A stretch of 64,000 nucleotides of DNA from Bosea vaviloviae (GTDB lineage: Bacteria > Pseudomonadota > Alphaproteobacteria > Rhizobiales > Beijerinckiaceae): NCBI RefSeq assembly GCF_001741865.1, contig NZ_CP017147.1, positions 372,001-436,000 on the forward strand, read 5' to 3'. Under the pieces are notes generated by a model, which worked only from the letters and a program-made list of their open reading frames with translations, was not told the DNA's origin and made no database searches. Position numbers and translations under genes: made by a program. Within the stretch, counting starts at the first letter, position 1; every line of letters starts with the position of its first letter. Shown here in pieces: positions 22,117-44,284 of this stretch.

Positions 22117-23001
22117 TTATCGAGAGCGCGGATCAAGCATGTCACGAAGGCCGTCGCCGATGAAGCTGAAGGCGAGCGCGAGCGAGAGGATCGCAAGGCC
22201 CGGCCCTGTGGCGATCCACCAGTTGTAGAAGTTCGTGGCGCCCTCGGCGATCATCTGGCCCCATTCCGGGGTCGGCGGGCGCGCGCCGAGGCCGATGAAG
22301 CTCAGCCCCGCGACGAGCAGTATGACCTGGCTGATATCGACCGTGGCGTTGACCAGGATCGGCGTCCAGCACAGCGGCAGCACGTGCCGGACGAGGATGC
22401 GCGGGGATGAGGCGCCCATCGCCACGGCCGCGTCGACATGCTCCAGCGAGCGGACCGAGAGCACCTGCGCCCGCATCAGCCGGGCATAGATCGGCCACCA
22501 GACGATGACCATCGCCAAGCCGGCATTGAACAGTCCCGGCCCGAGCGAGGCGGCGATCGCCATGGCCAGCAGCATGGGCGGGAAGGACAGCGTCACATCG
22601 GCGAGCCGCATCAGCGCGCCATCCAGAAGCCCGCCGAAATAGCCCGCCAGCGCGCCCAGGAAGCACCCGATCGCGACCGCCGTGACCAGGACACCGACCG
22701 CGATCGGCAGGGAGAAGCGCACGCCGTAGAGCGTGCGCACCAGCACGTCGCGCCCCAGCGCGTCGGTGCCGAGCCAGTGGGCGGCGCTCGGCGGCTGCAG
22801 GCGGCGGCCGGCCAGGGCGACCGGATCGTAGGGCGCCCACAGGTCGATGGTCGCGCCGACGACGACCCAGCCGAGGATCGTCGCGAGCGCAATCAGGATC
22901 GGCCAGCGCGCGGGGCGCGCGCGCGGATCGAGCAGCGCGGCGAGCCGGCGCAGGCGGCCGGGGCGCGCAACCGCCGCCGCTTCGGGAAGGGCTGCGCTCA
23001 T
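22117..23001 (-). CDS. Dipeptide/oligopeptide-type ABC permease (DppC-like)
   Basis: A 294-residue membrane protein with the DppC/OppC layout: N-terminal cytoplasmic stretch, a first helix at LIALATILGWVVVGA, the motif HWLGTDALGRDVLVRTLYG and the coupling loop VDAAVAMGASSPRILVRHVLP. ATG at 23001 overlaps the upstream permease stop by four bases (ATGA). It is the last gene of a three-gene operon. No DppD/DppF ATPase genes lie in the operon, so ATPases must come from elsewhere. Confidence 0.9.
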   Translation of the reverse strand: MSAALPEAAAVARPGRLRRLAALLDPRARPARWPILIALATILGWVVVGATIDLWAPYDPVALAGRRLQPPSAAHWLGTDALGRDVLVRTLYGVRFSLPIAVGVLVTAVAIGCFLGALAGYFGGLLDGALMRLADVTLSFPPMLLAMAIAASLGPGLFNAGLAMVIVWWPIYARLMRAQVLSVRSLEHVDAAVAMGASSPRILVRHVLPLCWTPILVNATVDISQVILLVAGLSFIGLGARPPTPEWGQMIAEGATNFYNWWIATGPGLAILSLALAFSFIGDGLRDMLDPRSR

Positions 23002-24014
23002 CTGCGGTCCCTCAGGCGCGGATCGACGAAGGCATAGGCGATGTCGGTCACGAGGTTGGTCAGCAGGAAGGCGGCGCCACCGATGATCGTCACGCCGATG
23101 ATGGCGGGATAATCGAGCTGGCGCGCGGCCTCGACCGCGTAGGAGCCGATACCGGGCCATGAGAAGATCGTCTCGGTCAGGACGGCCCCGGTGATCAGAT
23201 AGGCGAAGGTGAAGCCCAGGATCGTCAAGGTCGGCATCAGCGCGTTGCGCAACGCGTGCGTCAGCAGGACACGGCCCTCGCCCGCCCCCTTGGCGCGCGC
23301 GACCAGAATGTAATCCTGCGACAGCACCTCGATCATGCTTGCGCGCACCAGACGGGCGACGATGCCCACCACCGTCCAGCCCAGTATCAGGGCCGGCAGC
23401 ACGAGATGGGACAGCGCCTCGCGCAATATGCGCCCTTCGCCGGCGAGCGCCGCGTCGATCGTGAAGAAGCCGGTCACGAAGGGCGGTGGCAGGGAGCGCG
23501 TGTCGAGCCGGCCGGGCCCTGGCGACCAGCCCAGCGTGGCGAAGAAGATGAAGAGCGCGATCAGCCCGAGCCAGAACATCGGCACCGACGAGCCGACGAG
23601 CGCAAAAATGCGGATAGCCGTGTCGCCCGGCCCGTCGCGGAATTTCGCCGCCAGGATGCCGAGGATGACGCCGACGCTGCCGCCGAGCAGGACCGAGGCG
23701 ACGACGAGTTCCAGCGTCGCCGGCAGCCGCTGGGCCAGATCGCTCGCCACGGGCTGGCGCGTGCGGAACGAGGTGCCCATGTCGCCATGCAGCAGGTTGC
23801 GGACATAGACGACGTAGCGCTCGGCCAGCGGCCGATCGAGGCCCCAGCGCTCCTTGGCGGCGGCGACCACGACAGGATTGTTCATCTGCCGCTCGCCGAT
23901 CAGGGCGACCAGCGGGTCGCCCTTGGTGAACTGCGAGAGGAAAAAGGCGACGGTGACGATGCCGAGCAGAAGAAACGGCATCATCGCCAGTCGTTGCAGC
24001 GCGACCTTGAGCAT
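22998..24014 (-). CDS. Dipeptide/oligopeptide-type ABC permease (DppB-like)
   Basis: A 338-residue permease with the DppB/OppB N-terminus (LQRLAMMPFLLLGIVTVAFFL), the GLDRPLAERYVVYVRNLLHGDMG region, and the coupling loop IEVLSQDYILVARAKGAGEG. It lies between the binding-protein gene (21-base gap) and the DppC-like gene (four-base overlap). Confidence 0.91.
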   Translation of the reverse strand: MLKVALQRLAMMPFLLLGIVTVAFFLSQFTKGDPLVALIGERQMNNPVVVAAAKERWGLDRPLAERYVVYVRNLLHGDMGTSFRTRQPVASDLAQRLPATLELVVASVLLGGSVGVILGILAAKFRDGPGDTAIRIFALVGSSVPMFWLGLIALFIFFATLGWSPGPGRLDTRSLPPPFVTGFFTIDAALAGEGRILREALSHLVLPALILGWTVVGIVARLVRASMIEVLSQDYILVARAKGAGEGRVLLTHALRNALMPTLTILGFTFAYLITGAVLTETIFSWPGIGSYAVEAARQLDYPAIIGVTIIGGAAFLLTNLVTDIAYAFVDPRLRDRR

Positions 24015-24035
24015 CGGCTCTGCCGGTCAGGCGCG

Positions 24036-25658
24036 CTATTGCCGCCCGACCTGACTGAGCGCGAGATTGCAGCAGGCGCTGTAGCGCACGCCGGTCACGC
24101 CCTTGCGCGAGGCCAGGATCAGATCCGGGCTGACGACGGGAATGATGACCTTGTCGCCGATCATCTCAAGCGCGATCTCGCGATAGATGCGGTCGGCCTC
24201 AGTCGGCGTGGCGGCCAGCGCCTGCTTGAGGAGCTCGCCTTCCTTTTCGTTGACGACACCCTGCACCTTGTCGGCATGGGAGCGCTTGACCCAGGAACTC
24301 GAGCTCATCATCGAGAAGAACTGGACATATTGCACCGTGCCGAAATAGTCGGGTGCATAATAGGACGCGGTGATCGGGATACCGTCCTTGGCGACGCGCT
24401 CGCGCCAGACCGCGAAGGTCACCGGCTCGAGCTCGAGCTTGATGCCGACGCGGCCGAGATCCTGCTGCAGCTTCTGCATCATCAGCGAGAGATCGACGCC
24501 GTAGGAATTGACCGCCGGATAGGCCGATTTCATCGTGAAGCCGTTGGGCTGCCCGGCCTCGGCCAGCTTGGCGCGCGCCAAAGCGAGATCCTGCTTGGGC
24601 ATCGGCAGGTCGGTCGTACCGGGGAAGCCGTTGGGGATCGCAACCGGCTGCGGCCGGCCCTTGCCGCCCACCGTGAAGTCGATCAGCCCCTGATAGTCGA
24701 TCGCCGCCGCGATCGCCTCGCGGACAGGCCTGGTCAGCGGAACCGTGTTGGCCTTGGAGCCAACGCCCAGCGCCAGATAGATGAAATTATAGCTCGGCAC
24801 CGTATCGAGCACGAGGTTCTGATCCTTGGCCGAGGCGGCCGTATCGGGATCGATCTGCATCGCCACATCGGCGCCGCCCGTCTGCAGCATCTGCAGCTGC
24901 GCCACTGCGTCGGGCACCTGCTTGATGATGACCTCGGCGACCTTCGGCGCCGCGCCCCAGAACTTGTCGTTCGAGACCAGGCGCAGCTGGTCGCCATTGC
25001 GATAGAGCGCGAGCTTGTAGGGGCCGCTGCCGGCCGAATTGGCGAAGAACCAGTTGTCGGCCTGGTCGGCCGTGCTGGCATTCTCGCCGCCCGCCGCGCC
25101 GTTGGCCTCCGCGACCTTGCGGTTGATGATGCCGGCATAGGACGAAGCCAGCATGTTTAGGAACTCGGAATTGGACTGCGCCGTGCGCAGCACGACGGTC
25201 TTCTCGTCGGGCGTCTCGACGGCCGTCAGGGCCTCCATCAGGAATGACGCATCCGACTTCATGTTCTTCAGCCGCGTCAGCGACCAGGCGACATCGGCCG
25301 AGGTGACGGGCGCACCATCGGAGAAGACAGCGCCCGGCGCCAGCTTGAAGACGAAGCGCGTCTGGTCGGGGCTGACCTCCCAGGAGGTGGCAAGGTTGGG
25401 CGCAAGCGTCCTGTTGTCGGCGGCCAGCGTGACCAGCGTCTGGTAGACCGCCGAGAGGTAGATCTGACAGGTGTCGCAGAACGATCGCGCCGGATCGAGC
25501 GAGGTGATGTCCATGTTCCGCGCCACGACGAGCGGGCGCGTATCGGCCGCCCGCGTCGGCGCTGCCAGTCCCGCCAGCGATACGGCAATGCCGAGCACCA
25601 AGGCCGCCTTCATCTGTCCTGCCCGCAAGTGTCCTGCCCGTATGTGTCCTGCCCGCAT
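24036..25658 (-). CDS. Peptide-type ABC transporter substrate-binding protein (SBP family 5)
   Basis: A 540-residue periplasmic binding protein. The signal peptide (KAALVLGIAVSLAGLAAPTRAAD) precedes a family 5 domain with DITSLDPARS and FKLAPGAVFSDGAPVTSADVAWSL. Its N-terminus is extended by RAGHIRAGHLRAGQ, encoded by three 15-bp tandem copies. ATG at 25658 or the internal ATG at 25613 could start translation; the second removes the repeat. It is the first gene of the operon with the DppB/DppC-like permeases and shares a promoter region with the aminotransferase gene. The ligand is unknown. Confidence 0.88.
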   Translation of the reverse strand: MRAGHIRAGHLRAGQMKAALVLGIAVSLAGLAAPTRAADTRPLVVARNMDITSLDPARSFCDTCQIYLSAVYQTLVTLAADNRTLAPNLATSWEVSPDQTRFVFKLAPGAVFSDGAPVTSADVAWSLTRLKNMKSDASFLMEALTAVETPDEKTVVLRTAQSNSEFLNMLASSYAGIINRKVAEANGAAGGENASTADQADNWFFANSAGSGPYKLALYRNGDQLRLVSNDKFWGAAPKVAEVIIKQVPDAVAQLQMLQTGGADVAMQIDPDTAASAKDQNLVLDTVPSYNFIYLALGVGSKANTVPLTRPVREAIAAAIDYQGLIDFTVGGKGRPQPVAIPNGFPGTTDLPMPKQDLALARAKLAEAGQPNGFTMKSAYPAVNSYGVDLSLMMQKLQQDLGRVGIKLELEPVTFAVWRERVAKDGIPITASYYAPDYFGTVQYVQFFSMMSSSSWVKRSHADKVQGVVNEKEGELLKQALAATPTEADRIYREIALEMIGDKVIIPVVSPDLILASRKGVTGVRYSACCNLALSQVGRQ

Positions 25659-25659
25659 G
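25615..25659. repeat. Three tandem 15-bp repeats at the 5' end of a binding-protein gene
   Basis: Units 25615-25629, 25630-25644 and 25645-25659 share TGTCCTGCCCG and end in CAAG, TATG and CATG. They encode the repeating residues RAGH(I/L/Q) before the signal peptide. Copy number could vary by slippage. Confidence 0.85.
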
Positions 25660-25870
25660 ATGTGATCCCCTCTCCTTATTGATTGCTCAAGCTTCGGTTG
25701 ATTGCTCAGGCTCCGGCGCTGTGCGCAGGGGCCCGTGCTCGGCATGTCGTTTGCCACGCCGCTGTTCTGGCGTGCTGCAGTCGTGCCGGCCTCGGGAGCG
25801 TGGCCTTTTTCGCCATCATTGCGGAGACCGTCCCCTCCTGCGCAAAACCCGCTTGCCAAGCCAAGAGTAC

Positions 25871-25886
25871 TATATGATATATCGAA
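25871..25886. promoter_or_regulatory. GntR-type operator candidate, site A
   Basis: TATATGATATATCGAA, with core GATATATC at 25876-25883, lies 15-30 bases before the aminotransferase start and in the divergent gap to the binding-protein gene. The same core recurs at 34679-34686, 37501-37508 (one change) and 44335-44342, always in promoter regions of this island. The GntR gene at 34820 is the likely binder. Confidence 0.65.
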
Positions 25887-25900
25887 ATCGGAGGAAAGCC

Positions 25901-27142
25901 ATGTCCGAGGTCAAGAATTCCGTCGATGCGGCGCTGCGGGATCGGGCGCTGCGTGTGGTTCCAGGCGGCATGTGGGGGCATCTCCACGCCAACAGGCTGC
26001 CGGAAGGCTACCCGCAGTTCTTTGCGCGCGCCGAGGGCTGCCGGCTCTGGGACGTGGACGGGCGCTCCTATCTGGACTTCATGTGCAGCTGGGGCCCCAA
26101 TCTTCTCGGCCATCATCATCCCGAGGTCGAGGCTGCGGCCGAGCGCCAGGCCCGCCTGGGCGACTGCATGAACGGGCCTGCCGAGGTGATGGTCGAACTC
26201 GCCGAACTCCTTGTCGATACGGTGGCGCATGCCGACTGGACGCAATTCCAAAAGAACGGCACCGACGCCACCACGAGCTGCGCGACCATTGCGCGCGCCG
26301 GCACCGGGCGGCGCAAGCTGCTGGCGGCACGCGGCGCCTATCATGGCGCCGTGCCGTGGTGCTCGCCCTCGGTCGTCGGCGTGACCTCGGAGGATCGCGC
26401 CCATATCCTCTATTACGATTTCAACGATGCCGAGAGCCTGCGCGCGGCCGCCACTGAGGCTGGCGACGACCTGGCCGGCATCATCGTCTCGGCCTATCGC
26501 CATGACCTCGCGCGCGACCAGGAATTGCCGACGCAAGGTTTCGCCACCGCCGCGCGCGCGATCTGCGACGAGACGGGCGCCGCGCTCATCCTCGATGAGG
26601 TCCGGGCGGGCTTCCGGCTCGACCTCGCCGGCAGTTGGGAGCGCTTCGGTGTCAGGCCCGATCTCGCGGCCTGGAGCAAGTCCATTGCCAATGGCCACGC
26701 GCTTGCCGCCGTCACCGGCCGGGACTGGCTGCGCCAGGCGGCCTCGCAGGTCTTCGTGACAGGCTCGTTCTGGTGCGCAGCGGTCCCGATGGCGGCCGCC
26801 GTGGCAACGCTCACCGTGCTGCGCCGCGACAACATCGTCGCGCGGCTGGAGGCGATGGGAACGCGCCTGCGCGACGCGATCGATGCATCGGCCGCACGCC
26901 ACGGGGTCGCCCTGCGCCAAAGCGGCCCGGTGCAGATGCCTTTGATCCTGTTCGAGGACGACGCCGATTTCGCCAAGGGCAATCTGTTTTGCCAGACAGC
27001 ATTGGCGCGCGGGGTCTACTTCCACCCGCGCCACAACATGTTCCTGTCCGCCGCACATGGCGAGGCCGAGATCGACGAGGCGATTGCCGCCGCGGATACC
27101 GCCCTGGCGGCGGTCGCTGCGGGCAGCCGCACCGCCGCCTGA
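25901..27142 (+). CDS. Class III PLP-dependent aminotransferase (glutamate-1-semialdehyde aminomutase-like)
   Basis: A 413-residue fold-type I PLP enzyme. The cofactor lysine is in LAAWSKSIANG, the PLP aspartate in LILDEVRAGF, and the region QKNGTDATTSCATIARA corresponds to the phosphate-binding part. It resembles GSA-like transaminases used in catabolism, not the haem-pathway enzyme. ATG at 25901 follows GGAGG with ideal spacing. A GntR-type site lies just upstream. The next gene starts 27 bases later. The amine substrate is unknown. Confidence 0.85.
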   Translation: MSEVKNSVDAALRDRALRVVPGGMWGHLHANRLPEGYPQFFARAEGCRLWDVDGRSYLDFMCSWGPNLLGHHHPEVEAAAERQARLGDCMNGPAEVMVELAELLVDTVAHADWTQFQKNGTDATTSCATIARAGTGRRKLLAARGAYHGAVPWCSPSVVGVTSEDRAHILYYDFNDAESLRAAATEAGDDLAGIIVSAYRHDLARDQELPTQGFATAARAICDETGAALILDEVRAGFRLDLAGSWERFGVRPDLAAWSKSIANGHALAAVTGRDWLRQAASQVFVTGSFWCAAVPMAAAVATLTVLRRDNIVARLEAMGTRLRDAIDASAARHGVALRQSGPVQMPLILFEDDADFAKGNLFCQTALARGVYFHPRHNMFLSAAHGEAEIDEAIAAADTALAAVAAGSRTAA

Positions 27143-27169
27143 ACCCGATCGCTTGTCCGAGACCGTGCC

Positions 27170-27964
27170 ATGACCCGCATCACCGGCAAGACGCGGATCC
27201 TGTTCATTCTGGGCGAACCAGTCGCGCATATCATCGGCTCGACACTGCTCAACGAGCATTTCGCCGGGCGCGGCATCGATGCGGCCGTCTCCCCTCTCCA
27301 CGTCGCCCCAGTTGACCTGCCCAAGGTTCTCGCGACGCTGCGGATCCTGCGCAACGTCGCCGGGTTCGGCGTCACGATCCCGCACAAGATCGCCGTCCTC
27401 GACCTACTCGATTCGGTCGGTGAGCGTGGGCGGCTGGTGGGCGCGGTCAATTTCGTGCGCCGCCACCCTGACGGCAGCCTGCACGGCGACAATGTCGACG
27501 GCCTCGGCTTCGTCGGCGGACTGATCGCGGCCGGCGTGGAGATCCGGGGCGCCCGGGTGCTGCAGGTTGGGGCCGGCGGCGCAGGCCGCGCTATCGCTTT
27601 CGCGATGGCGGAGGCAGGCGCGGCGGAATTGACCATCATGAATCGGTCTGCCGACAAGGCGCGCGAACTCGCTGCCGCGGTCGGCCGTGCCTATCCCACC
27701 TGCCGCACCGATGGCGGCGAGCCCGATACCGCCGCCTGCGACATCGCGATCAACACCACCTCGCTCGGCATGAAAGACGGCGATGCGCTGCCGCTGGATG
27801 CGTCTCGCCTTGCTCCCGGCGCGGTCGCGGCCGAAGTCGTCATGACACCGGAGGTCACGCCGTTTCTTGCCGCCGCGGCAGCACGCGGTTGCAAGACGGT
27901 TCCGGGCAAGGCGATGCTCCTGGCGCAGTTGCGTGCGGCATCCGATCTCGTCGGCCTTGCCTGA
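27170..27964 (+). CDS. Shikimate dehydrogenase-like oxidoreductase (AroE paralogue)
   Basis: A 264-residue NAD(P)-dependent protein. The substrate-domain motif GFGVTIPHK holds the catalytic lysine; the Asp is in HGDNVDG; the nucleotide loop is VGAGGAGRAIAFA; TTSLGM is also present. It is a paralogue used outside the aromatic pathway, to judge from its pairing with an aminotransferase in a catabolic island. It may oxidise or reduce a polyol or hydroxy-acid intermediate. Activity on shikimate itself cannot be excluded. Confidence 0.82.
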   Translation: MTRITGKTRILFILGEPVAHIIGSTLLNEHFAGRGIDAAVSPLHVAPVDLPKVLATLRILRNVAGFGVTIPHKIAVLDLLDSVGERGRLVGAVNFVRRHPDGSLHGDNVDGLGFVGGLIAAGVEIRGARVLQVGAGGAGRAIAFAMAEAGAAELTIMNRSADKARELAAAVGRAYPTCRTDGGEPDTAACDIAINTTSLGMKDGDALPLDASRLAPGAVAAEVVMTPEVTPFLAAAAARGCKTVPGKAMLLAQLRAASDLVGLA

Positions 27965-27999: not shown

Positions 28000-30252
28000 T
28001 CAATCGTCAAAGCCCTCGAAAGGCGCGGGATCGAGGAAGCGACGCAGGACATTGCCTGTCACGCGGCTGACCGAGTTGTCATAGCCGTTGCAGGTCAGCG
28101 CGCAGCACCAGGCGATCGAGCCGGTCGCGAACACCGCGCCGCCGGCTGCGGTCGGAAAGAAGGCGATATCGGCGCGCACCAGCGCGTTCTGATCGCCCAT
28201 CGTGCCGCGATGCAGGGTGCGCAGCTCCTCCAGCGTCGGTACGCCGCCATAGTCGAGCCGGTCGGCCGTCGCCAGGCGCAGGAGATGCGGCGGCGAACCC
28301 AAGGTCGGCTCGACGCGGTCGACCTCGAGCCCGGCCGCCCCGCCGCCGCGTAGTCCGAAATCGCCGAGCGGTTTTGCCAGGTCGATGCCTTCGACCAGCC
28401 AGGACACGCGCGGGTCGCGCGCATCCTCCAGCCACTCATAGGGATAGGAGCGCGTGAAGACCTGGGCGTCGAAGCCGACGCCGACCAGGCGCTGCGGCGG
28501 GCGCCCATGGGTGCGCCAGAGGCCCGAGGGCTCGCCATTGAAGGACAGGCCGTTCTCGCCGGGTTCGCCCTCCCAGGTGCGCAAGCCACTCATGCCGCGG
28601 CGGATCTCCATCTGGAAGGGCTGCGTGGGGTGCCAGGCGATGCGCCAGTAGAAGCCGTTGCCGCCGAGATAGATGTGCCGGCCGCCGCCGCGCTGATAGG
28701 CGTCGAAGGCGTCGATCATGTTGCGGCTGTAGTACTCGGGATGTGACGGCGTGATCACGCAGTCATAGGCCTCCAGCAGCTGCGCGCCGTGCCGGTCGAT
28801 GTCGCAATCGGTGATGACGTCGTAGTCGAAGCCGAGCTCCTCCAGCCAGTCGATGATGTGCGTGTCGTTGACGTAGTTGAAGGTGTTGCCGAGCGGCCGC
28901 ATGTTGAGGATCGGGCGTTTGGCCGTCGAGTAGCACCAGCCGCTGCCGTCGCTGTGGGTGTCGTAGGTCGAGAGCCCGAGTTCGCGATGCTCCTGGATAT
29001 AGACGTCGTCGCGCGAGAGCGCGATGACGCCCTCCAGCATGGCCTCGGCATGGACTTGGTCGAGCCGCAGCGCGCTGTTGGCATAGGCGAGGAAGGTCGC
29101 CGTCGTCGCCACCAGAGCGAGCTTGGCCTTGGCCTGACCGAGCGGAGCCCGCACGAAGAAGGAGACATAGCTTTCGACGGGATCGTCGCTGCTCTCGCGG
29201 GCGGTCAGCTTCAGCGCGTAGAAGCCGCTGCGCCAGTCGGCTGGAATCTTAAGCGCCAGATCGGGCTGCCAGCCGCAATCGGCCATGTCGTCGCTGTGGA
29301 AATGAATCGCGCCATAGAGCTCTGGCCGTTCCGTCCATTGCACCACCGAGCCGTCCCAGTTGGCGCCGGCGATGGCGCGCATGGGCATGTGCCTGAGCTG
29401 GCCGTCGAGCCGGTTCGTCGAGAGGTCGCGCACCTTGTCGCTGGCCATCTCCTGCGAAAAATCCCAGGCGCCGACCAGAGCGGGATCGGCGGGCGAGGGC
29501 GCCAGCATCTCGCAGGCCCGCCGCAGGGTCTCTTCGGACAAGGGCTCGCGAAACAGGCGCGGCCGATCGATCTTGCCGTCGAAATGGCCTGAAGTGAGCG
29601 GGTCCGCGCCACTTTCAAAGGCGTGGGCGGCGAAGACGAGCGCGGTCTCAGTGGGCCAGGCCAGGCTGGCGGGTGCCTGGCCCGTCGTGAGGCTGCTGCT
29701 GTCGCGCCCGCCCAACCTGTCCAGGCTGCGCTGGATCAGCGTGATCGCGCCGCTGGCGGCGTCATAGCTGGCGCCGACGAACACCCATTCGCGCTCGAGC
29801 ACCGGCCTGGCGGATGTGAGGGTCGCAGCGCCTGCGGCACCGGCGACCTCGAAGACGAGATGCCCCGCCTGGTCGAGCCCCAGGCGCCAGCCCTGGCCGA
29901 GATCGGCGCGCCAGCGCGACATCACGGTCTGCGGGCCGGCAAGCGGGGCCGTCGGGTAGATGAAGCAGCCGGCCGCCAGGCTCGGCGCGTTCAACGCCGG
30001 CCTGTCGGCGATGATCGCGGCGGAGCCGGGATGGACCGGCTGGTCGCGCAGCGCGACACGGCCGTCGATGGCGCTGCCGGGCTCACTCAGCTTCAGGCCC
30101 GGGCCGTCCGGATCGGGATCGGCGCAGCGCACCCGGACGATGCGGACTTGGGCCGCATCGAGCGTCGGGCTGGACAGGTGAAAGCTCACGGTCTCGCCCG
30201 GCGAGACGACGAGCGGCCAGGCATAGCCGAGGACGGCGGTGGTATCTCTCAT
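28000..30252 (-). CDS. N,N-dimethylformamidase large-subunit-like amidohydrolase
   Basis: A 750-residue protein with the layout of the large subunit of N,N-dimethylformamidase. An N-terminal beta-rich and LamG-like part (to about residue 250) is followed by a glutamine-amidotransferase-like part with AYANSALRLDQVHAE, STYDTHSDGSGWCYSTAKRPILNMRP, DYDVITDCDID, TPSHPEYYS and HIYLGGNGFYWRI. Known enzymes use a mononuclear iron held by tyrosines and a glutamate; candidates lie in the PEYYS and adjacent region. A small-subunit-like gene is directly upstream. The natural substrate is probably a small or branched amide, not necessarily dimethylformamide. Confidence 0.82.
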   Translation of the reverse strand: MRDTTAVLGYAWPLVVSPGETVSFHLSSPTLDAAQVRIVRVRCADPDPDGPGLKLSEPGSAIDGRVALRDQPVHPGSAAIIADRPALNAPSLAAGCFIYPTAPLAGPQTVMSRWRADLGQGWRLGLDQAGHLVFEVAGAAGAATLTSARPVLEREWVFVGASYDAASGAITLIQRSLDRLGGRDSSSLTTGQAPASLAWPTETALVFAAHAFESGADPLTSGHFDGKIDRPRLFREPLSEETLRRACEMLAPSPADPALVGAWDFSQEMASDKVRDLSTNRLDGQLRHMPMRAIAGANWDGSVVQWTERPELYGAIHFHSDDMADCGWQPDLALKIPADWRSGFYALKLTARESSDDPVESYVSFFVRAPLGQAKAKLALVATTATFLAYANSALRLDQVHAEAMLEGVIALSRDDVYIQEHRELGLSTYDTHSDGSGWCYSTAKRPILNMRPLGNTFNYVNDTHIIDWLEELGFDYDVITDCDIDRHGAQLLEAYDCVITPSHPEYYSRNMIDAFDAYQRGGGRHIYLGGNGFYWRIAWHPTQPFQMEIRRGMSGLRTWEGEPGENGLSFNGEPSGLWRTHGRPPQRLVGVGFDAQVFTRSYPYEWLEDARDPRVSWLVEGIDLAKPLGDFGLRGGGAAGLEVDRVEPTLGSPPHLLRLATADRLDYGGVPTLEELRTLHRGTMGDQNALVRADIAFFPTAAGGAVFATGSIAWCCALTCNGYDNSVSRVTGNVLRRFLDPAPFEGFDD

Positions 30253-30267: not shown

Positions 30268-30594
30268 TCAGTCGAGCTTCTGTCCCGTCAGCGCTTCCCA
30301 GCGCATGGCGAAGACGGTCCATTCGGCCTCAATGAGGCTCGTGAACACGCGGTTGGGGAAGGTCTCGACCGGAGCGCCGCGCTGCCCCGGCAGGCGGGCC
30401 AGCATCCAGCGCCGCCCGGGATCGAGCGTGATCAGGACGTGGCGCTTGCCGACGCCGGTCCAGCGCATGCGGTGCAGCAGCCGCTGCAGGTCATGGCTGT
30501 GGGGGCCGCGCGGGCGGGCGCGCATCTCGTCGACCAGGTCCTGCCGCGACGGGTCGACCTGCCAATGCGCGGCCTCGGGATAATTGACGAGCAT
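30268..30594 (-). CDS. N,N-dimethylformamidase small-subunit-like protein
   Basis: A 108-residue protein 15 bases upstream of the large-subunit gene. Residues around PRGPHSHDLQRLLHRMRW and the C-terminal EAEWTVFAMRWEALTG match the pattern I recall for the small subunit (DmfA1, about 130 residues). ATG at 30594 is chosen; the frame extends upstream without family similarity. The small subunit is required for the known enzyme's activity. Assignment rests on position as well as on weak similarity. Confidence 0.65.
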   Translation of the reverse strand: MLVNYPEAAHWQVDPSRQDLVDEMRARPRGPHSHDLQRLLHRMRWTGVGKRHVLITLDPGRRWMLARLPGQRGAPVETFPNRVFTSLIEAEWTVFAMRWEALTGQKLD

Positions 30595-34671: not shown

Positions 34672-34687
34672 AATATTTGATATATCC
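34672..34687. promoter_or_regulatory. GntR-type operator candidate, site B
   Basis: AATATTTGATATATCC, core GATATATC at 34679-34686, lies in the gap between the PotA-like gene and the divergent GntR gene. This position fits control of the transporter operon and autoregulation of the GntR gene. Confidence 0.65.
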
Positions 34688-34819
34688 GTCTTGGCAAGCA
34701 GGTTTAGGACCGTGATGGCACCGGTCGGCGACCGCACCCTGCCCCGGCACGTTTTGCGCGTTTCGAACCGCGCCGATTTGCTTTAAGGCTGCAGCGATCG
34801 GCGAAAGCCCTCGGGAGAC

Positions 34820-36552: not shown

Positions 36553-37427
36553 GGCGCGTCCTCCGCGTTGGACAAGGCCGCCATCGCAGCCGCGGCGACA
36601 TCGGCGGGCAGCTTCAGATTATGCGCCAGAATGCCTTCGAGCATCGGCACGCCCTTGCCGGCCAGGGTGCGCACGACGAGGCAAGTCGGACGGGCAGGCG
36701 TCGGGCGGGCGGGTGTCGCGCGGGCCCGGTCGAGCGCGCCGAGCAGGCCAGGGATGTCGTGACCGTCCACCACCTCCTGCGCCCAGCCGAAGCTCGCGAA
36801 CTTGCCGGCGATGGGCTCGAGCTTCACCACGCCGTCGACATGGCCTTCGACCTGCATGCGGTTGTCGTCGATGAGCAGGCAGAGATTGTCGAGGCCGAGG
36901 CTGCCGGCAAGCAGCGCCGCCTCCCAGACCTGCCCTTCCTGAAGCTCGCCATCGCCCAGGATGACATAGACACGGCTGGCATCCGCGCGCCGACGGGCCG
37001 CCAGCGCCATGCCGATAGCCACCGACAGGCCCTGCCCCAGCGAGCCGCAGGTCGCCTCGACGACGGTCCCGACCCGCTCCGACGCATTCACCTCGAAAGG
37101 CGAGCCGTCCTTGCAATAATCGCTGATTTCGGCCGCCGGCACGAGCCCGCGCTGCGCCAACGTCGCATAGAAGATCGCCGTGTTGTGCGCGGTCGAAAGC
37201 AGGAGCCGGTCGCGCGCCGGCCAGTCGGGATCGGCCGGGTCGAGCCGCAATTCGGCAAAATAGAGCACCGCGAAAAGATCGGCCGCGCCCAGGCCCTGCT
37301 GGACATAGCCCTGCCCGGTCGGTGCCACCAATTCGATCACCTTGCGCCGCAGCTGCAAGGCGATCTCGGTGAGTTCCTGGGGATCGCGGACGCGCAGCGC
37401 CGGCTGCCGCTCGGCGCCGCCGCTCAT
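36549..37427 (-). CDS. Transketolase N-terminal half (ThDP-binding subunit)
   Basis: A 292-residue subunit. The ThDP/Mg motif runs from GDGELQEGQVWEAALLAGSL to LLIDDN, and STAHNTAIFYATLAQRG corresponds to the substrate-channel His region. ATPARPTPARPT in the C-terminal part is a small internal duplication. ATG at 37427 is chosen; the frame is open further upstream without family sequence. It diverges from the sugar-acid kinase gene over a gap that holds a GntR-type site. Confidence 0.91.
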   Translation of the reverse strand: MSGGAERQPALRVRDPQELTEIALQLRRKVIELVAPTGQGYVQQGLGAADLFAVLYFAELRLDPADPDWPARDRLLLSTAHNTAIFYATLAQRGLVPAAEISDYCKDGSPFEVNASERVGTVVEATCGSLGQGLSVAIGMALAARRRADASRVYVILGDGELQEGQVWEAALLAGSLGLDNLCLLIDDNRMQVEGHVDGVVKLEPIAGKFASFGWAQEVVDGHDIPGLLGALDRARATPARPTPARPTCLVVRTLAGKGVPMLEGILAHNLKLPADVAAAAMAALSNAEDAP

Positions 37428-37495: not shown

Positions 37496-37510
37496 TATAT
37501 GATATATTCA
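37496..37510. promoter_or_regulatory. GntR-type operator candidate, site C
   Basis: TATATGATATATTCA lies between the divergent transketolase and four-carbon sugar-acid kinase genes. It matches site A at every core base except the last C, which is T. Confidence 0.6.
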
Positions 37511-37534: not shown

Positions 37535-38806
37535 ATGAGTCTCGTATTTGGTGCGGTCGCCGACGACTTGACCGGCGGTCTCGAATTGGCCGCGATGATC
37601 CGGGCCGGCGGCGTGCCATGTGCTTTCGTCACCGAACTGCCGGATTCCGTGAGCGATCCGGCGATCGTGGTGGCACGGCGCACGCGCGTCGCCGAGCCCG
37701 CTCTGGCTGTGGCGGATATCGGCCGCGTCGGCGCCTGGCTGATCGAACGCGGAGCGCGCCAGCTCTTCTTCAAATACTGCGCGACCTTCGATTCGACGCC
37801 GCATGGCAATATCGGCAACTGCGCCGACGTGCTGCGCCAACTGACCGGCAGCCGGCTCGCGGCGTTCTGCCCGTCATTCCCCGAGGCCGGACGGCGTGTC
37901 TTCCAGGGCCACCTCTTCGCCGACGACAGGCTGATCTCGGAGTCGCCGAAGCGATACGATCCACTGACGCCGATGACCGATCCCGACCTCGTGCGCGTGC
38001 TGCAGCAGCAGACGGCGACGCCGGTCGGATTGATTCCGCAGCAGATCGTGCGCGCCGGACTGGGGGCCATGACGCAGCATTGCGAGCGCCTGATCGCCGA
38101 CGGCATCGGCTTTGCGCTCACTGACGCCGCGGTGCCCGACGATCTCGCTGCACTGGCGGCGCTGACCGTCTCCTGGCCGCTGATGACCGGCAACTCCTCG
38201 ATCGCCGCCTATTATCCGGCGCTGTGGCGCGAGCGCGGGCTCGTCGATGCCAATGATAGCGTGACCCGCCTGCCCCCGGTCCGAGGTCCGGGCGTCGTGC
38301 TCGCCGGCAGTTGCGCGGAGAAGACCATGCGGCAGCTCGAAGTCTTCGCCCGCGATCGCCCGGTGCTGATGCTCGACCTCGCCGCCGTCAGCGACGCCGA
38401 TGCGGCCGTCACGGCGGCGCTCGACTGGGCCCTGCCCCGCCTTGCCGACGGCCCCGTCGCGATCGCCACCTCGGCCGATCCCGACGCGGTCGCGGCCGTG
38501 CAAGTCAAGCTCGGCCAGCGTCGCGCCGCCACGCTCGCCGAGGAGATCCTGTCGAAGCTGGCGCAGGCGCTGCGGATAAGCGGCGTGCGGCGTTTCCTGA
38601 TCGCCGGCGGCGAGACCTCGGGCGCCGTGCTGGATCGCCTTGCGATCCACTCGCTGCGGGCCGGCGCTTACCGCGCGCCGGGCGTCTCGCAGGCCCTGTC
38701 GGAGGGGGCGACGCCGCTGGCCTTCTGCCTCAAATCGGGCAAGCTTGGCCCCGAGGACATGTTGCTGCCGATGCTCGCAAGTATGGAACAAGGAGAGCAG
38801 CCGTGA
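37535..38806 (+). CDS. Four-carbon acid sugar kinase family protein (3-oxo-tetronate kinase, OtnK-like)
   Basis: A 423-residue DUF1537-type kinase. The N-terminal substrate domain starts FGAVADDLTGGLELA, has the KYCATFDSTPHGNIG and FCPSFPEAGRRVFQGHLF motifs, and the nucleotide domain has VLAGSCAEKTMRQ and FLIAGGETSGAVLD. Enzymes of this type phosphorylate 3-oxo-tetronates or related acids such as 3-oxo-isoapionate at O4. The next gene, overlapping by four bases, encodes the decarboxylase/aldolase partner, giving the usual OtnK-OtnC pair that yields dihydroxyacetone phosphate. Confidence 0.89.
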   Translation: MSLVFGAVADDLTGGLELAAMIRAGGVPCAFVTELPDSVSDPAIVVARRTRVAEPALAVADIGRVGAWLIERGARQLFFKYCATFDSTPHGNIGNCADVLRQLTGSRLAAFCPSFPEAGRRVFQGHLFADDRLISESPKRYDPLTPMTDPDLVRVLQQQTATPVGLIPQQIVRAGLGAMTQHCERLIADGIGFALTDAAVPDDLAALAALTVSWPLMTGNSSIAAYYPALWRERGLVDANDSVTRLPPVRGPGVVLAGSCAEKTMRQLEVFARDRPVLMLDLAAVSDADAAVTAALDWALPRLADGPVAIATSADPDAVAAVQVKLGQRRAATLAEEILSKLAQALRISGVRRFLIAGGETSGAVLDRLAIHSLRAGAYRAPGVSQALSEGATPLAFCLKSGKLGPEDMLLPMLASMEQGEQP

Positions 38807-39462
38807 CCGCCGCGATATCGGAAGCCGATGCCCGCGCTGAGCTGTGCAATATCTACCGGAAGATCGAGGGTTCGGGCCTGAGCCTCGGCAATGCCGGCAA
38901 TATCAGCCTGCGCCTGAATGAGGCCATGCTGATCAGCCCGACCGGCGCCGACGGGGCGACCGTGGCGCCGGAAGATTTCGTGCTGACGCGCTTTGACGGC
39001 ACGGCGCTATCACCCGGCACACCGTCCAGCGAATGGGCGATCCATGGTGGAGTCTACGCGGCGGGGCTCGCTCAGGCTGTGATCCATGCCCATCCCGATT
39101 GTTGCGTCGCGCTGTCCTGCCTGCGCCGCCCGATGCCGCCGTTCCACTATATGGTAGCGGCCTTCGGCGGGCACGAGATCCCCTGCGCACCCTATGCGCC
39201 CTTCGGCACGACGGCGCTCGCCGAAGGCGTCGTGGCGGCGCTGGCGGGTCACAGCGCCTGCCTGATGGCCAATCACGGCATGGTCTGCATCGGCTCCACA
39301 CTGGCGCAAGCCTTTGCGCGCACGGTCAAGCTCGAAATGCTGGCGCGGCAGCTGCTGCTCGCGCGCCAGGCCGGCGAGATCGTCCATCTCACCCAAGACG
39401 AGATGAATACGGTACTCGGACGCTATGCCGAATACGGTCGCGGCCGCCTGTCGAGCGGCTGA
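38803..39462 (+). CDS. Class II aldolase/adducin family, 3-oxo-tetronate 4-phosphate decarboxylase (OtnC-like)
   Basis: A 219-residue metal-dependent aldolase-fold protein. Metal ligands are in HAHPDC and ANHGM; SLGNAGNISLR and ISPTGAD are the phosphate-binding motifs. GTG at 38803 overlaps the kinase stop as GTGA, with AAGGAG upstream. It would decarboxylate the phosphorylated 3-oxo acid. A four-carbon substrate is the default, but a branched sugar acid is possible given the split transketolase. Confidence 0.88.
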   Translation: MTAAISEADARAELCNIYRKIEGSGLSLGNAGNISLRLNEAMLISPTGADGATVAPEDFVLTRFDGTALSPGTPSSEWAIHGGVYAAGLAQAVIHAHPDCCVALSCLRRPMPPFHYMVAAFGGHEIPCAPYAPFGTTALAEGVVAALAGHSACLMANHGMVCIGSTLAQAFARTVKLEMLARQLLLARQAGEIVHLTQDEMNTVLGRYAEYGRGRLSSG

Positions 39463-39468: not shown

Positions 39469-39566
39469 GAGCCCTTCCGCGTTCCTCCGAACCGCAGAAG
39501 GGCTCTAGGCCTTTGATTTATCGCATTTTCTTCACGTGAACCGGTATCCACTTCACTCGAAAATGC
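39469..39566. repeat. Dispersed two-hairpin repeat, copy 1
   Basis: The first hairpin has arms GAGCCCTTC (39469-39477) and GAAGGGCTC (39497-39505). The second has GCATTTTC (39523-39530) and GAAAATGC (39559-39566) with CACGTGAACCGGTATCC inside. It follows the OtnC-like gene. Copy 2 at 51117-51160 has the same 44-base spacing but arms GCGTTTTC/GAAAACGC: both sides changed together, so pairing is kept. Confidence 0.8.
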
Positions 39567-39595
39567 GCGGTTTCACCGATATCTGGAGGGATGAG

Positions 39596-40345
39596 ATGAT
39601 CATCGTCACGGGCGGCACCCATGGCATCGGCCGGGCCTGCGTGGAGCGCCTGGGGCCACGCGGCGTCGTCTTCATCGGCCGCGACGTCGCGGCTGGCGAA
39701 GAGCTGGCAGCGCAGGTGCCGGGCGCGCATTTCGTCGCCGGCGATGTGACGAGCGAGCAGGATTGTCGGCGCGTCGTCGAGGCCGCCCTCGACCGTGGCG
39801 GCGGCCGCCTTGCGGGCCTGGTCAACAATGCCGGGCTGGGACGGCGCATGGTCTTCGCCGAGGCGACCCTCGAGGATTGGGACGCCGTGATGAACGCCAA
39901 TGCCCGCAGCGCCTTCCTGTTCACGCGTCATGCGCTGGCGGGCCTGCGCGCGGGCAAGGGTGCGGTCGTCAATGTCGCCTCCGTCGCGGGCAAGTTCGGC
40001 GAGGAGGGGCTGGCGGTCTATTGCGCCTCCAAGGCCGCCGTGATCGCGATGACGCAGGCGCTGGCGCTCGAATTCGGCGAGGAGGTGCGCTTCAACGCGA
40101 TCTGCCCCGGACAGATCGCGACCCGCATGATGTCGAAGGTGCTGGCCGATCCGCTGCGGCTGCGGCAGCTCGAACTGCGCATTCCCGCCGGCCGCCTCGG
40201 CGACCCCGGCGAGGTCGCCGACGTCGTCGAATGGCTACTCTCGGACAAGGCGAGCTATGTCAACGGCGCCGTATTGACCGTCGATGGCGGCGAGACGGCC
40301 GGGTTGCGGACGCCGCGCCTGCCGGAAGGATTTGTCGCGGGCTGA
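39596..40345 (+). CDS. Short-chain dehydrogenase/reductase (SDR)
   Basis: A 249-residue classical SDR. The cofactor motif is TGGTHGIGRA, NNAGLG follows, and the catalytic Ser, Tyr and Lys are in VASVAGKFGEEGLAVYCASKAA. The C-terminal region ends PEGFVAG. ATG at 39596 has GGAGGG upstream. It may oxidise the C3 hydroxyl of the sugar acid to the 3-oxo acid for the kinase, a step done by a 3-hydroxyisobutyrate-dehydrogenase relative in the classical otn pathway. That role is inferred from position. Confidence 0.87.
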   Translation: MIIVTGGTHGIGRACVERLGPRGVVFIGRDVAAGEELAAQVPGAHFVAGDVTSEQDCRRVVEAALDRGGGRLAGLVNNAGLGRRMVFAEATLEDWDAVMNANARSAFLFTRHALAGLRAGKGAVVNVASVAGKFGEEGLAVYCASKAAVIAMTQALALEFGEEVRFNAICPGQIATRMMSKVLADPLRLRQLELRIPAGRLGDPGEVADVVEWLLSDKASYVNGAVLTVDGGETAGLRTPRLPEGFVAG

Positions 40346-40354: not shown

Positions 40355-42684
40355 TCAATCGCGGTCCGGCACAAGCTCCTGCACCGTCCTGGCCTCCGCC
40401 GCGATACGCCCCCAGTCATAGAGCATCGGCACCATCTCGCAGGCACTCCAGGGCGTATTCTGGTCGGCGTAATGTGGGCTTGCCGGATGTCCGGAAGTGC
40501 CGTGGAAGACGACCCAGCGGCTGTTGTCCCAGTTGCCGACATCGAAGACATAGCGCGACAGCGCGCCATAGGTCGCCACTGGGCCGACTGAGGGCACGAT
40601 CCCATTCGCGAGCACGGTGTCGCCGTCTCCGCCGACCGGCAGGGAAGGCGGATCGAGCCGCTGCGCCCAGTCAGGGAACTGCGGCGAGAGCGGATGGGCA
40701 AAGCGCGGCCGATGCTCCTCGCCCCAACTCCGGCCGGTCAGGGTCGCCGCCGCTTCCGACAGCGCCTCCGACAGCACGTCGTCCCAGGTCGAGCCGTTGA
40801 GCATCCCGGCATCGTCGTCGCGCAGCAATGTCGGCACCGCCCACCAGACCTGGCCCTGCGGCGAGACGCCGGGCGCCACCGCGGCGAAGCGATGCATTGT
40901 GGCCCGCTCCAGCCTGCTGCGCAGGGTGACGATCCGCGTCAGGGCTCGCCGGAAGGCATTATAGGCGGCAGCCGCGGTCGAATCCGCGTCCATGCGACCG
41001 TTCCAGGCCATCAGATCCTGCCGCAGCCGCTCCGCACCGGCCTGCTCGCGCTGGCCCAGCGCCGCGAGACGAGTGCGGAACAGCTCGAGATGCGGGGATT
41101 GCGTATCGGCATGGATAGCCGCCGCATCGGCAACAGCGAAGGGCGCACCCGACTCCAGTCGCTGCAGGATGCGTTCGGCGCGATAGGGCGGGTGGCAATC
41201 GGTGGAGAGATAATCGGGATGATCATCCGCCACGACCCGGTTATTGGCGGTGACGATCAGGCCGCCGGGCGGGTCGATGACGCAGGGCATCGCCTCATGC
41301 GCGAACCAGCCCTGCCATTCATGTTCGCCGGTCCAGCCAGGCACGGGTAGCCAGCCATTGTCGCGCGAGCGCACCGGCACGCGGGCGCGCACCAGATGGC
41401 CGATCGCGCCGGCCGTGTCGCCGGCCACGAGATTATGGTCGATCAGGCCCCAGCCCCGCGTCGCCTCATAGAGTTCCAAGACGGTCGAGGCCGCAGGCAT
41501 CCGCGTCAGGCAATCGAAGGAGAGGTCGGTCTCGGCGAACTGGACGGAGCGCAGGGACAGGCCGACCCCCTCGCGCGGATCGCCCGCTATCACAGGACCA
41601 TGGCGCGTCTCGAAGATATCGAACTCCCGGTCGACCCCGCCCCTGACGGCGATCCGGTCGCGCCGATGGATGACGGGCTCGAAGCCCTCGCCGAAGCGCA
41701 CCGCCATGCCCTCGTCAATGAACTGTTCGAGATAAAGGTCGTGGATGTCCATGAAGGCATGGGTGACGCAATAGGCGACGCTGCCGTTATGGGCGAAATG
41801 CGGGAAGCCCGGCACGCCCGGCACGGTGAGGCCGATCATGTCGAAGCGATCGCAGGCGAGATGGTGCTGCGCATACATGCCGGGGATCTCGAAGAGGCAT
41901 GGGGATCGCCCGCGAGAATGGGCCGCCCCGTCGCCGTCCGACCCGGACCGACCGCCCAGTTGTTGCTGCCGCCTCCGGCCGCATCCGAGGCATCGCCGCC
42001 CATGGCCTTGAGCAGGTGGTCGACGAATGGGGCCAGCGCCGCCAGATCGGCTTCGAAGCGGTCGGCCTGGGCACCAGGGGGAATGCAGAGCAGGTCGCGT
42101 CCGCCATCATCGTAGCGCAGCTTCAGCGCGTTCTGCGCGCCCACGACCGGCAGCGCCAGCATCCGCCAGAGCTTGAACCAGATCGAGCCCATCAGCAGGC
42201 CAAGCCGCCGCATCACCGCAATGCTGTGCCAGGGCTCCCAGGGTTCCGGCGTTGCGCCAAGGAGCGCGTATTCGCAAGGGTGCGCCGCACCGGACTCCAG
42301 GAACGCATTCACGCCGGAGGCGTATGCCTTCAGCATATCCTTCGCCTCACCGGCAAGTGCCTCGTAGTCGCGCCGGCAGGCCTGCTCCAGGCCCAGCCGC
42401 CGCACCAGGATGTCGGCCTCGGCCGCCTCGGCCCCGAGCCATTCGGCAGCGCGGCCCAGCGCCTTGCGGCGCGTCAGCTCCATCTGGAAGAGGCGGTCTT
42501 GCGCATGCACGAAACCGAGCGCCCTGTAGGCATCCGCCTCGCCCACCGCCTTGATATGCGGGATGCCCCAGGCATCGCGCCGGACGGAAACGGAAGCCTC
42601 CAGACCAGGCAGGGACAAGGAGCCTGACAGCGGCGGCAGGGCCGCCTCGAGGGCGTCGCGATCGGCATCGGTCGTCATAGGCAT
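40355..42684 (-). pseudogene. Penicillin acylase family Ntn-hydrolase, interrupted by a single-base frameshift
   Basis: Two overlapping frames together make one penicillin acylase of about 775 residues. The first (42684 to 41836) contains the alpha-chain region GIPHIKAVGEADAYRALGFVHAQDR, then the maturation and nucleophile site GGGSNNWAVGPGRTATGRP and AGDPH. The second (to 40355) continues in the other frame with FEIPGMYAQHH and the beta chain. One base is missing near 41897-41898: after GDPH the expected (x)LFEIPGMYAQ is reached only by a frame change. The rest looks intact. It may be recently inactivated or a sequence error. No signal peptide is visible. Confidence 0.85.
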
Positions 42685-42709
42685 CTCTCGTCAGGCGCGT
42701 TTTGGCGGT

Positions 42710-44284
42710 TCAGGCGTCGAGGGTGAGCTGCCAGAACATCGGGAAGCTGGACTGCACGATCGACTTGACGCGCGAGCGATAGCCCGCCGGTCGGCTGAAC
42801 TGGCCCCACATAACCGAGGGCGTGTCCTTGTAAGCCTCGACCTGGATCTCGGCCGCGATGCGCTTGCGCATGACGGGGTCGGGCGCCTTGGCATAGGCTG
42901 TGAGCTTCTCGCTGATGGCCGCGTCGCAGCTCCAGCCGGCATAGTTGGCGCAGTTGTTGCCAATGTAGAAATGTGTCAGCGGCGACATCATGTCGATGTC
43001 GTTGGCATAGACCGGGAAGATGCCCCAGCCGTCCTTCTTGGCCCGGCGCGCGAGAACCGTACCCCAGTCCATCACCTGCTCATCGACGGTGAAACCGGCC
43101 TTGCGCATGTTGTCCGCCAGCACGGCGCCAGCCGTCTGCGAGATCGAGCCCGCGACCGTCAAGAAGACGATGGGCTCACCCTTGTAGGAGGTCTTCTTGA
43201 GGGCGGCGCGTGCCTCGTCGATAGCGAGCCTTGCGGTACCCGCGCCCTCCGAGCTGCTGAGAGGTGCATCGCACATGAAGAAGGACGGGCAGTTCTTGAC
43301 CAGATAGCGATCGGGGATGCCGATCGCCTGCAGGACCTCGCCTTGGTCGACCAGTTTCCAGAGCACTTCGCGGACCGCCCTGTCGGCGAAGGGACCGGTC
43401 GCGTGATTGAGACGGAAATTGCCCTGGAACATGTCGAGGCCGGTCAGGGCCATGACGTTCACGTTCGACGCCTTCTCAAGCTTGTCGAGCCAGTCGAAGG
43501 GCAGATACTGCATGTAATCGATCTCGCCGGCGATCAGCGCGGTCGCCGCTGTCGCGTCGTCGGGCATGACGCGCAAGACCACCTCGTCGACTTTGACCAC
43601 CTTCGCACCGGCCAGGAAGTCGGGCTTCTCGGAGCGCGGCTTGTACTGCTCGAAGCGCTCCAGAACGGCGCGGTCGCCCGGGCGCCAGGCGCTGGCCTTG
43701 AACTTGAACGGCCCCGATCCGATGATCTCCTTGATGCGCTCGTCACCAGGCGGGAGGATGCGCTCGGGCATCATCGCCGGCACCGGCGCATTGGGCTTGC
43801 CCAGCACGTCGAGCATCAGTGGAAAGGGTTCGCGCAACACGATCCTGAAGCTGCGCTCGTCCACCGCCTCGATCCCGGTCACAGCGGCCATGAGCATCTT
43901 GCCGAGCGCATCGCCGCGGGCCCAGCGCTTGAGCGAGGCCACGCAGTCCGAGGCCTTGACCGGCGCGCCATCATGCCAGGCGAGACCGTCGCGCAGCTTG
44001 AACTGCCAACTCAGGCCATCGGACGCGGTCGAGAACGTGTCCACCATCTGGGGGTGGATCGTTCCCGCCATGTCCATCGAAAACAGCGTATCGAAGACGT
44101 GATAGGCGAAGGTGCGCGTGATCGCGGCCGTCGTGGCATGCGGATCGAGGATCACCACCTCGGATTCGAGCACGGCGATCATCGACTTCGGCGCCGCCCG
44201 GGAGGCTGTGGGAACAGCGACGCTCACCAGCGCCGCCGCGCCGCCCAGGAGAACACCGCGTTTGCTCAGGTCCCGTCGCAACAT
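42710..44284 (-). CDS. Peptide-type ABC transporter substrate-binding protein (SBP family 5)
   Basis: A 524-residue periplasmic binding protein with an N-terminal export signal (KRGVLLGGAAALVSVAVPTASRA). Family 5 motifs include VVILDPHATTAA and FKLRDGLAWHDGAPVKASDCVASLKRW. It is followed after 25 bases by the acylase pseudogene, so the two form a leftward operon: import and hydrolysis of an N-acyl compound. No permease genes accompany it; it may use the DppB/DppC-like permeases at 22117-24014. A GntR-type site lies 50 bases upstream. Confidence 0.88.
   Translation of the reverse strand: MLRRDLSKRGVLLGGAAALVSVAVPTASRAAPKSMIAVLESEVVILDPHATTAAITRTFAYHVFDTLFSMDMAGTIHPQMVDTFSTASDGLSWQFKLRDGLAWHDGAPVKASDCVASLKRWARGDALGKMLMAAVTGIEAVDERSFRIVLREPFPLMLDVLGKPNAPVPAMMPERILPPGDERIKEIIGSGPFKFKASAWRPGDRAVLERFEQYKPRSEKPDFLAGAKVVKVDEVVLRVMPDDATAATALIAGEIDYMQYLPFDWLDKLEKASNVNVMALTGLDMFQGNFRLNHATGPFADRAVREVLWKLVDQGEVLQAIGIPDRYLVKNCPSFFMCDAPLSSSEGAGTARLAIDEARAALKKTSYKGEPIVFLTVAGSISQTAGAVLADNMRKAGFTVDEQVMDWGTVLARRAKKDGWGIFPVYANDIDMMSPLTHFYIGNNCANYAGWSCDAAISEKLTAYAKAPDPVMRKRIAAEIQVEAYKDTPSVMWGQFSRPAGYRSRVKSIVQSSFPMFWQLTLDA

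Follow-up and report, generated by a model that had tools for sequence, protein, structure and literature searches.

Several enzyme types of interest here have been described in separate contexts. In the L-threonate/D-erythronate pathway the kinase OtnK phosphorylates a 4-hydroxyl, i.e. the CH2OH beside the 3-keto group (PMC12540250). The aminotransferase FumI acts on the 2-amino-3-ol hydrolysed fumonisin, whose 2-amino group it passes to pyruvate (PMC2933618), N,N-dimethylformamidase (DMFase) binds iron through Y399, Y440 and E521 with H519 nearby (PMC7686228), and class III cephalosporin acylase is an engineered industrial enzyme (PMC6712217, PMC13049609). Relatives of these enzymes are encoded together in the stretch analysed here, a window of 64,000 nucleotides of the Bosea vaviloviae contig NZ_CP017147.1 (positions 372,001 to 436,000; the genome comprises 6.7 Mb in two contigs). 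The gene cluster occupies window positions 22117-44284.

Scans of the cluster proteins with hidden Markov models (HMMs) recovered within this span every gene named in an earlier, sequence-only reading: two SBP_bac_5 proteins, OppBC permeases, a PotABCD-type importer, a DMFase-like pair, an Aminotran_3 enzyme, a shikimate-dehydrogenase-like protein, an FCD-type GntR regulator, a split transketolase, a DUF1537 kinase, a class II aldolase, a short-chain dehydrogenase (SDR) and a penicillin-amidase-family gene. We favour, at slightly less than even confidence, one catabolic regulon under GntR control that acts on amino-polyols or vicinal amino-alcohols in N-acylated (amide-conjugated) form; most likely it is the amine half of such a conjugate that is catabolised. 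No paper describing the gene set was found in the open-access literature, in agreement with the earlier statement that no described pathway contains it. The earlier observation is real and stronger than was claimed; its interpretation is partly supported.

Promoter motif, regulator and conservation

The cluster is marked by four copies of an operator-like motif, located by searches of window and genome: TATATGATATATC between sbp5a and the aminotransferase gene (25871-25883), TATTTGATATATC between potA and gntR (34674-34686), TATATGATATATT between tktN and otnK (37496-37508) and TATACGATATATC upstream of the sbp5b and acylase genes (44330-44342). With at most two mismatches, TATATGATATATC was matched four times in the window, compared to an average of 0.05 in shuffled sequences, none out of 100 of which reached four. 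The pattern TATNYGATATATY has four matches across the 6.7 Mb genome (reversed pattern: one), and all four fall in cluster promoter regions, between or upstream of divergent or first genes. Across 12 genomes with the cluster, the pattern matched 33 times, 32 of these inside clusters (reversed pattern: five); this is a biased sample, composed of the present genome and 11 of the 26 genomes with examined regions and chosen for carrying the cluster or its core, a selection of which the count in the present genome is free. One in-cluster match (G731:C33:42961) seemingly lies inside oppB, by extrapolation, the sole match outside clusters is at G731:C22, and one genome (G582) has none.

A single regulon had been guessed at before, with lack of co-regulation named as the observation that would speak against the proposal. 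As the motif is confined to the cluster, the genes are probably co-regulated and apparently form one regulon. Its candidate regulator, the GntR/FCD protein, is encoded within the cluster (34820-35587, plus strand; PF07729 80.5 bits, PF00392 47.9 bits); we infer that the motif acts as an operator, with this protein as its presumed binder. Consensus scans are weak evidence here because their counts are near expectation (4 promoter-like sites against 1.5 expected, 7 terminator-like sites against 7.7), and two motif sites (potA/gntR and tktN/otnK) overlap sigma-70-like matches that are themselves barely above chance. Some, but not all, related clusters also contain the motif.

Within the genus, dmfL was matched at E 1e-100 or better in 12 of 67 Bosea genomes, six of which, including the present one, show at least 81% identity. 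The gene order is the same across the whole span in G951, G954 and G908 and is kept from sdr to the aminotransferase gene in G912 and G955, where sbp5b and the opp genes were unmatched in the regions examined.

Amidases and aminotransferase

The large amidase subunit (dmfL, 28000-30252, minus strand) matches PF20254 at 324.8 bits. Among solved structures, it matches Paracoccus DMFase (6lvb, 447 bits) and, with 440 bits, 8huy, which is an N-acetyl-(R)-beta-phenylalanine acylase. Its residues Y390, Y430, E506 and H504 align to Y399, Y440, E521 and H519 of DMFase, so that the PF20254 domain is combined with the two tyrosines and one glutamate of the iron site, as in the DMFase family. The small subunit (30268-30594, minus strand; start most likely at 30594, giving 108 residues) is encoded upstream of dmfL, also in relatives. 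Scans against Pfam and NCBIfam gave no match and a phmmer search against the PDB nothing meaningful. Still, its AlphaFold model (mean predicted local distance difference test score 85) found 6lvb_B as top Foldseek match (E 1.5e-3, probability 1.00), and the protein is accordingly described as a predicted DMFase-fold small subunit. In G668 a second short DMFA2_C-domain protein (L156:11360-12150; 263 residues, 189.9 bits) directly follows dmfL.

The gene noted earlier as a penicillin acylase does belong to that family (PF01804, 217.1 bits) and is more exactly a class III glutaryl/cephalosporin acylase, present here in two frames. The upstream piece (41836-42684, minus strand) encodes the alpha chain and the start of the beta chain with the SNNW motif, shortly after which the frame breaks; the downstream piece (40355-41878, minus strand) encodes most of the beta chain and is identical to 4hsr_B at 405 of 504 positions (80%). 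PMC6712217 identifies 4hsr_B as the Pseudomonas N176 class III enzyme carrying a single engineered change. The acylase is in one frame in G951, G954 and G908 (open frames of 778-821 residues), and the break in the window may have arisen recently by mutation or reflect wrongly called bases. A second apparent frame break in the cluster was seen in the close relative G951, where the tktC match shifts frame (L140:10663-11657).

Over the N176 stretch, identity amounts to 92% for the G908 copy (L144:12200-13711), 80-81% for G951 and G954, and 63-67% for Roseomonas-type copies. Given the 92% identity, the "Pseudomonas" N176 strain, or its acylase gene, may be of Bosea origin. The acylase of Bosea OK403 is described as intracellular and without signal peptide in PMC13049609. 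As the OK403 genome (G954) holds a single acylase match, that enzyme is presumably the product of this cluster. A preference of class III acylase for glutaryl over aminoadipyl side chains is reported in PMC6712217. No paper placing a class III acylase in this gene context was found in the open-access literature.

For the aminotransferase (AT3, 25901-27142, plus strand) the presence of an Aminotran_3 enzyme stood as first noted, and the assignment was changed to FumI-like: the nearest solved structure is FumI (6hbs, 443 bits; 197 of 396 residues identical, 49.7%), with the next at 178 bits. Relatives are labelled glutamate-1-semialdehyde aminomutase in several sources; this candidate was rejected since FumI is much closer.

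A search of 249 genomes from the order found AT3 in 16, including the present one, at a threshold of E 1e-140. Among the 15 others, G668 (L156) carries the kinase, aldolase, sdhL, potABCD, both DMFase-like subunits, AT3 and three motifs, and no thiamine pyrophosphate (TPP) enzyme. The other 14 loci (L173-L186) make up an AT3-only set, defined by AT3 at 53-67% identity and no dmfL of at least 45% identity in the stretch examined, which was short for L182 and L183 (10 and 12 kb). In this set a TPP enzyme, either split transketolase or fused E1, is found in 8 of 14 loci, the kinase in 5 and the aldolase in 2. The named dmfL loci (L005-L026, n = 22, dmfL at least 58% identical, some ending at contig or stretch ends) include AT3 in 18 cases, 14 of these with a TPP enzyme and 8 with the kinase. 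TPP enzyme, kinase and AT3 of at least 45% identity are all absent from eight further loci with a more distant dmfL (L027-L034).

The TPP enzymes differ between lineages. A fused enzyme of the 2-oxoacid-dehydrogenase-E1 type sits between dmfL and AT3 in loci of the Roseomonas type and of Elioraea, whereas Bosea has a split transketolase instead, elsewhere in the cluster. Two types of TPP enzyme beside AT3 in different lineages would be expected if the AT3 product is an alpha-hydroxyketone. Likewise, three kinds of amidase occur beside AT3 across loci, i.e. DMFase, N-terminal-nucleophile acylase and amidase-signature enzymes, the last near AT3 in L176 and L024. Overall, AT3, TPP enzyme and kinase tend to co-occur and the amidase looks exchangeable.

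Proposed route and alternatives

The kinase (otnK, 37535-38806, plus strand) is 31% identical to E. coli YgbK and exceeds the cut-off of the 3-oxo-tetronate kinase model NF043035 (377.6 versus 350 bits), as the earlier family assignment implied. The accompanying "decarboxylase for 3-oxo-tetronates" had to be given up: the class II aldolase (38803-39462, plus strand) reaches 99.8 bits where the OtnC model NF043034 demands 250. It also falls below the FucA model TIGR01086 (139 versus 400 bits). Still, S72, F131 and Y209 of FucA, which we take to be the residues that matter, are kept in six of six cluster aldolases compared, whereas E. coli YgbL (OtnC) has K72, P131 and no Y209. A plain OtnK-OtnC threonate pathway as a full match was rejected on this model score and these residues.

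In the proposed route, whose individual steps and substrate class we infer, the ATP-binding cassette (ABC) importers would take up the amide conjugate, and the ferric DMFase-type amidase, joined by the cytoplasmic glutaryl/cephalosporin-type acylase where intact, would hydrolyse the amide. FumI-like AT3 would then take the amino group adjoining CHOH to give a ketose-like hydroxyketone. The position phosphorylated by OtnK is chemically like C1 of a ketose and would therefore be what a ketose-1-phosphate aldolase needs; the DUF1537 kinase could thus phosphorylate the CH2OH beside the keto group, with retro-aldol cleavage by the FucA-like aldolase to dihydroxyacetone phosphate (DHAP) and an aldehyde. 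Alternatively, or in addition, the hydroxyketone could undergo transketolase-type cleavage, and SdhL and the SDR would adjust the oxidation state. A 2-amino-1,3,4-polyol is our guess for the amine, because retro-aldol cleavage needs a hydroxyl two carbons from the ketone. The general logic of import, amide cleavage, deamination and entry towards DHAP and pentose phosphate is retained from the sequence-only reading; its sugar-acid part as substrate of kinase and "decarboxylase" is less well supported.

In that version a four-carbon sugar acid is released from the conjugate and converted via a 3-oxo-tetronate and its 4-phosphate to DHAP by OtnK and OtnC, while the amine is deaminated separately. 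We consider this unlikely. The kinase score speaks for it, as does the Roseomonas kinase with 411 bits in the same model, and the aldolase belongs to the OtnC superfamily and is 32% identical to YgbL; its model score and FucA-type residues argue in the other direction. Moreover, no LtnD or OtnI family was recognised in the scanned cluster proteins, to which the search was confined, and 5 of the 14 AT3 loci that have no close DMFase contain the kinase as well. An N-acyl 3-amino-tetronate, i.e. a beta-amino acid, could instead be deacylated by the DMFase-like enzyme and converted by AT3 directly to the 3-oxo-tetronate, from which OtnK and the aldolase-family enzyme would lead to DHAP. The DMFase family includes the beta-phenylalanine acylase mentioned above, AT3 is distantly like a beta-phenylalanine aminotransferase (4ao9, 108 bits) and the kinase fits. 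However, AT3 is far closer to FumI, the aldolase residues are FucA-like and we know of no source of N-acyl 3-amino-tetronate, so that this proposal is given a similarly low probability.

The PotD-like protein may point to a different class of compounds, as it matches chains named mannopine-binding (5l9s, 166 bits) and agropine-binding (6hly, 112 bits) ahead of one named polyamine-binding (4eq7, 99.5 bits) and PotD (24.6 bits). Together with the glutaryl preference of the acylase, this would suit catabolism of opines or Amadori-type compounds, i.e. mannityl or fructosyl conjugates of glutamine-like acids. Mannityl and fructosyl opines are secondary amines and not amides, no amine-oxidase-type family was recognised among the cluster proteins scanned, and the likeness of the binding protein holds at family level only; such a role is judged distinctly improbable. 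Resemblance to FumI, which acts on a long-chain amino-polyol, could also indicate deacylation, deamination and cleavage of sphingoid or fumonisin-like N-acyl long-chain 2-amino-1,3(,4)-polyols. Importers of the peptide and PotD/opine type do not fit this, the scanned cluster proteins include no fatty-acid or esterase family, and a kinase/aldolase route would be unusual for a lipid, which makes this the least probable substrate class.

Carbon is more likely drawn from the amine part, given the FumI-like AT3, the FucA-type aldolase and the presence of TPP enzyme or kinase with AT3 in loci lacking a close DMFase. A number of observations weigh against the amino-polyol regulon. The kinase fits a model for acid substrates, and to our knowledge the characterised DUF1537 kinases all act on acids. 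Overall identity separates the aldolases less than the selected residues do: the window enzyme is 34% identical to FucA and 32% to YgbL, the six cluster aldolases 34-46% and 26-35%, respectively, and E73, H92, H94, Y113 and H155 are common to FucA, YgbL and the cluster aldolases. The AT3 family is large (6820 of 7999 scored candidates match), so that FumI chemistry may not transfer to AT3. In the AT3-only set, 6 of 14 loci have neither TPP enzyme nor kinase, the transketolase match of L175, counted among the eight, reaches just 34-35%, and L184 contains a partial DMFase-like match at 24%, which limits the set. Of the 22 named dmfL loci, four show no AT3 in the stretch examined, one with split transketolase and sdhL (L011) and three with neither of these (L010, L025, L026); L007 and L023 have dmfL and AT3, yet neither TPP enzyme nor kinase. 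The motif pattern gave no match in L150, L152 and L155 or in 11 of the 14 AT3-only loci, and the acylase is lacking in G912 and G955. Finally, we are not aware of any N-acyl amino-polyol common enough in nature to account for the spread of the cluster.

A broader claim is put forward tentatively, and we lean against it: an undescribed alphaproteobacterial pathway for amino-polyol amide conjugates, with a core of FumI-like AT3, TPP lyase, DUF1537 kinase with FucA-like aldolase and GntR with a TTGATATATCAA-like operator, with interchangeable amidases, and with the native job of industrial cephalosporin C acylases (CCA) as part of it. If true, a DUF1537 kinase would be paired with a FucA-like aldolase and a transaminase, and the kinase family would extend beyond acid sugars. 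As the class III acylase belongs to a small, defined set of genes sharing one promoter motif, its natural substrate is directly testable.

Remaining genes, neighbours and known systems

The genes for uptake are all on the minus strand. Permeases of OppC/DppC type (22117-23160; PF00528 113.7 bits) and OppB/DppB type (22998-24014; 139.7 bits) are regarded as accessory, the former matched in G951, G954 and G908 and without match in the regions examined from G912 and G955. The peptide-type binding proteins are sbp5a (24036-25859, true start uncertain; PF00496 242.9 bits) and sbp5b (42710-44284; 191.8 bits), the nearest solved structure of the latter being an unnamed binding protein (8vdx, 306 bits). 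The second importer comprises the PotD-type protein with the opine-binding likeness (30691-31845, start uncertain), PotC-type (31849-32679) and PotB-type (32676-33545) permeases and a PotA-type ATPase (33542-34648). PotABCD polyamine uptake was rejected on the weak PotD match (equivalog NF007048, 20.5 versus 582 bits); the cut-off of the PotA subfamily model TIGR01187 is nevertheless exceeded (374.8 versus 355.6 bits).

Beyond oppBC in the window the next same-strand genes encode the large and Fe-S subunits of a molybdopterin aldehyde/xanthine dehydrogenase-type enzyme (18660-21504), not ABC ATPases, whereas ATPases follow oppBC in the related loci L179, L181 and L185. These dehydrogenase subunits were unmatched beside opp in L141, L143 and L145. 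In the AT3 cluster of L179, a family III CoA-transferase and an aldehyde dehydrogenase come after oppBC and two ATPases (L179:3757-6489), which hints at what becomes of an acyl or aldehyde product.

The transketolase halves are encoded on the minus strand by tktC (35554-36552; PF02779, PF02780) and tktN (36549-37427; PF00456 139.8 bits), the start of tktN being chosen from the sequence as an open frame from ATG. The shikimate-dehydrogenase-like oxidoreductase (sdhL, 27170-27964, plus strand) was rejected as a true shikimate dehydrogenase since AroE cut-offs are not reached (e.g. TIGR00507, 156 versus 200.2 bits); its nearest solved structures are 4k28, 2egg and 7cok (5-ketofructose reductase). 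In Bradyrhizobium LHD-71 an M24 creatinase/prolidase-type peptidase replaces sdhL beside AT3 (L007:12323-13645). The SDR (39536-40345, plus strand, start uncertain) matches PF13561 at 189.7 bits. Minus-strand open reading frames at 25706-27385 and 34658-35407 were discarded as genes, as no family matched and plus-strand genes occupy both places. An Rfam scan of 20000-46000 gave zero matches. The flank of the cluster at 44781-47716 encodes a sensor kinase and response regulator pair as well as a HutD-like protein.

With the bacterial L-threonate/D-erythronate pathway (LtnD-OtnI-OtnK-OtnC) the cluster shares a kinase above the OtnK cut-off, a partner of class II aldolase fold and DHAP as likely product, but LtnD and OtnI were not found in it, the partner stays below the OtnC cut-off and has FucA-type residues, and the two are accompanied by an aminotransferase, amidases and TPP enzymes. 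Paracoccus DMFase has the same small-large pair and 2-Tyr-1-Glu iron ligands; the cluster enzyme is a distant relative (447 bits over about 740 residues) in a regulon with uptake and aminotransferase genes, with nothing suggesting N,N-dimethylformamide as substrate. Fumonisin catabolism in Sphingopyxis MTA144 is represented by AT3, 49.7% identical to FumI over 396 residues, whereas no esterase or other fumonisin gene was recognised in the cluster. The class III acylases of Pseudomonas N176 and Bosea OK403 (CCA) are close relatives (80% to N176 over 504 residues, 92% for the G908 copy), and the window gene differs in being frameshifted and in lying under the cluster motif. Finally, the E. coli L-fucose pathway (FucK-FucA) likewise combines a kinase with a class II aldolase to yield DHAP, and the aldolase residues are kept; the cluster differs in having a kinase of another family and no isomerase, and would feed from an amine.

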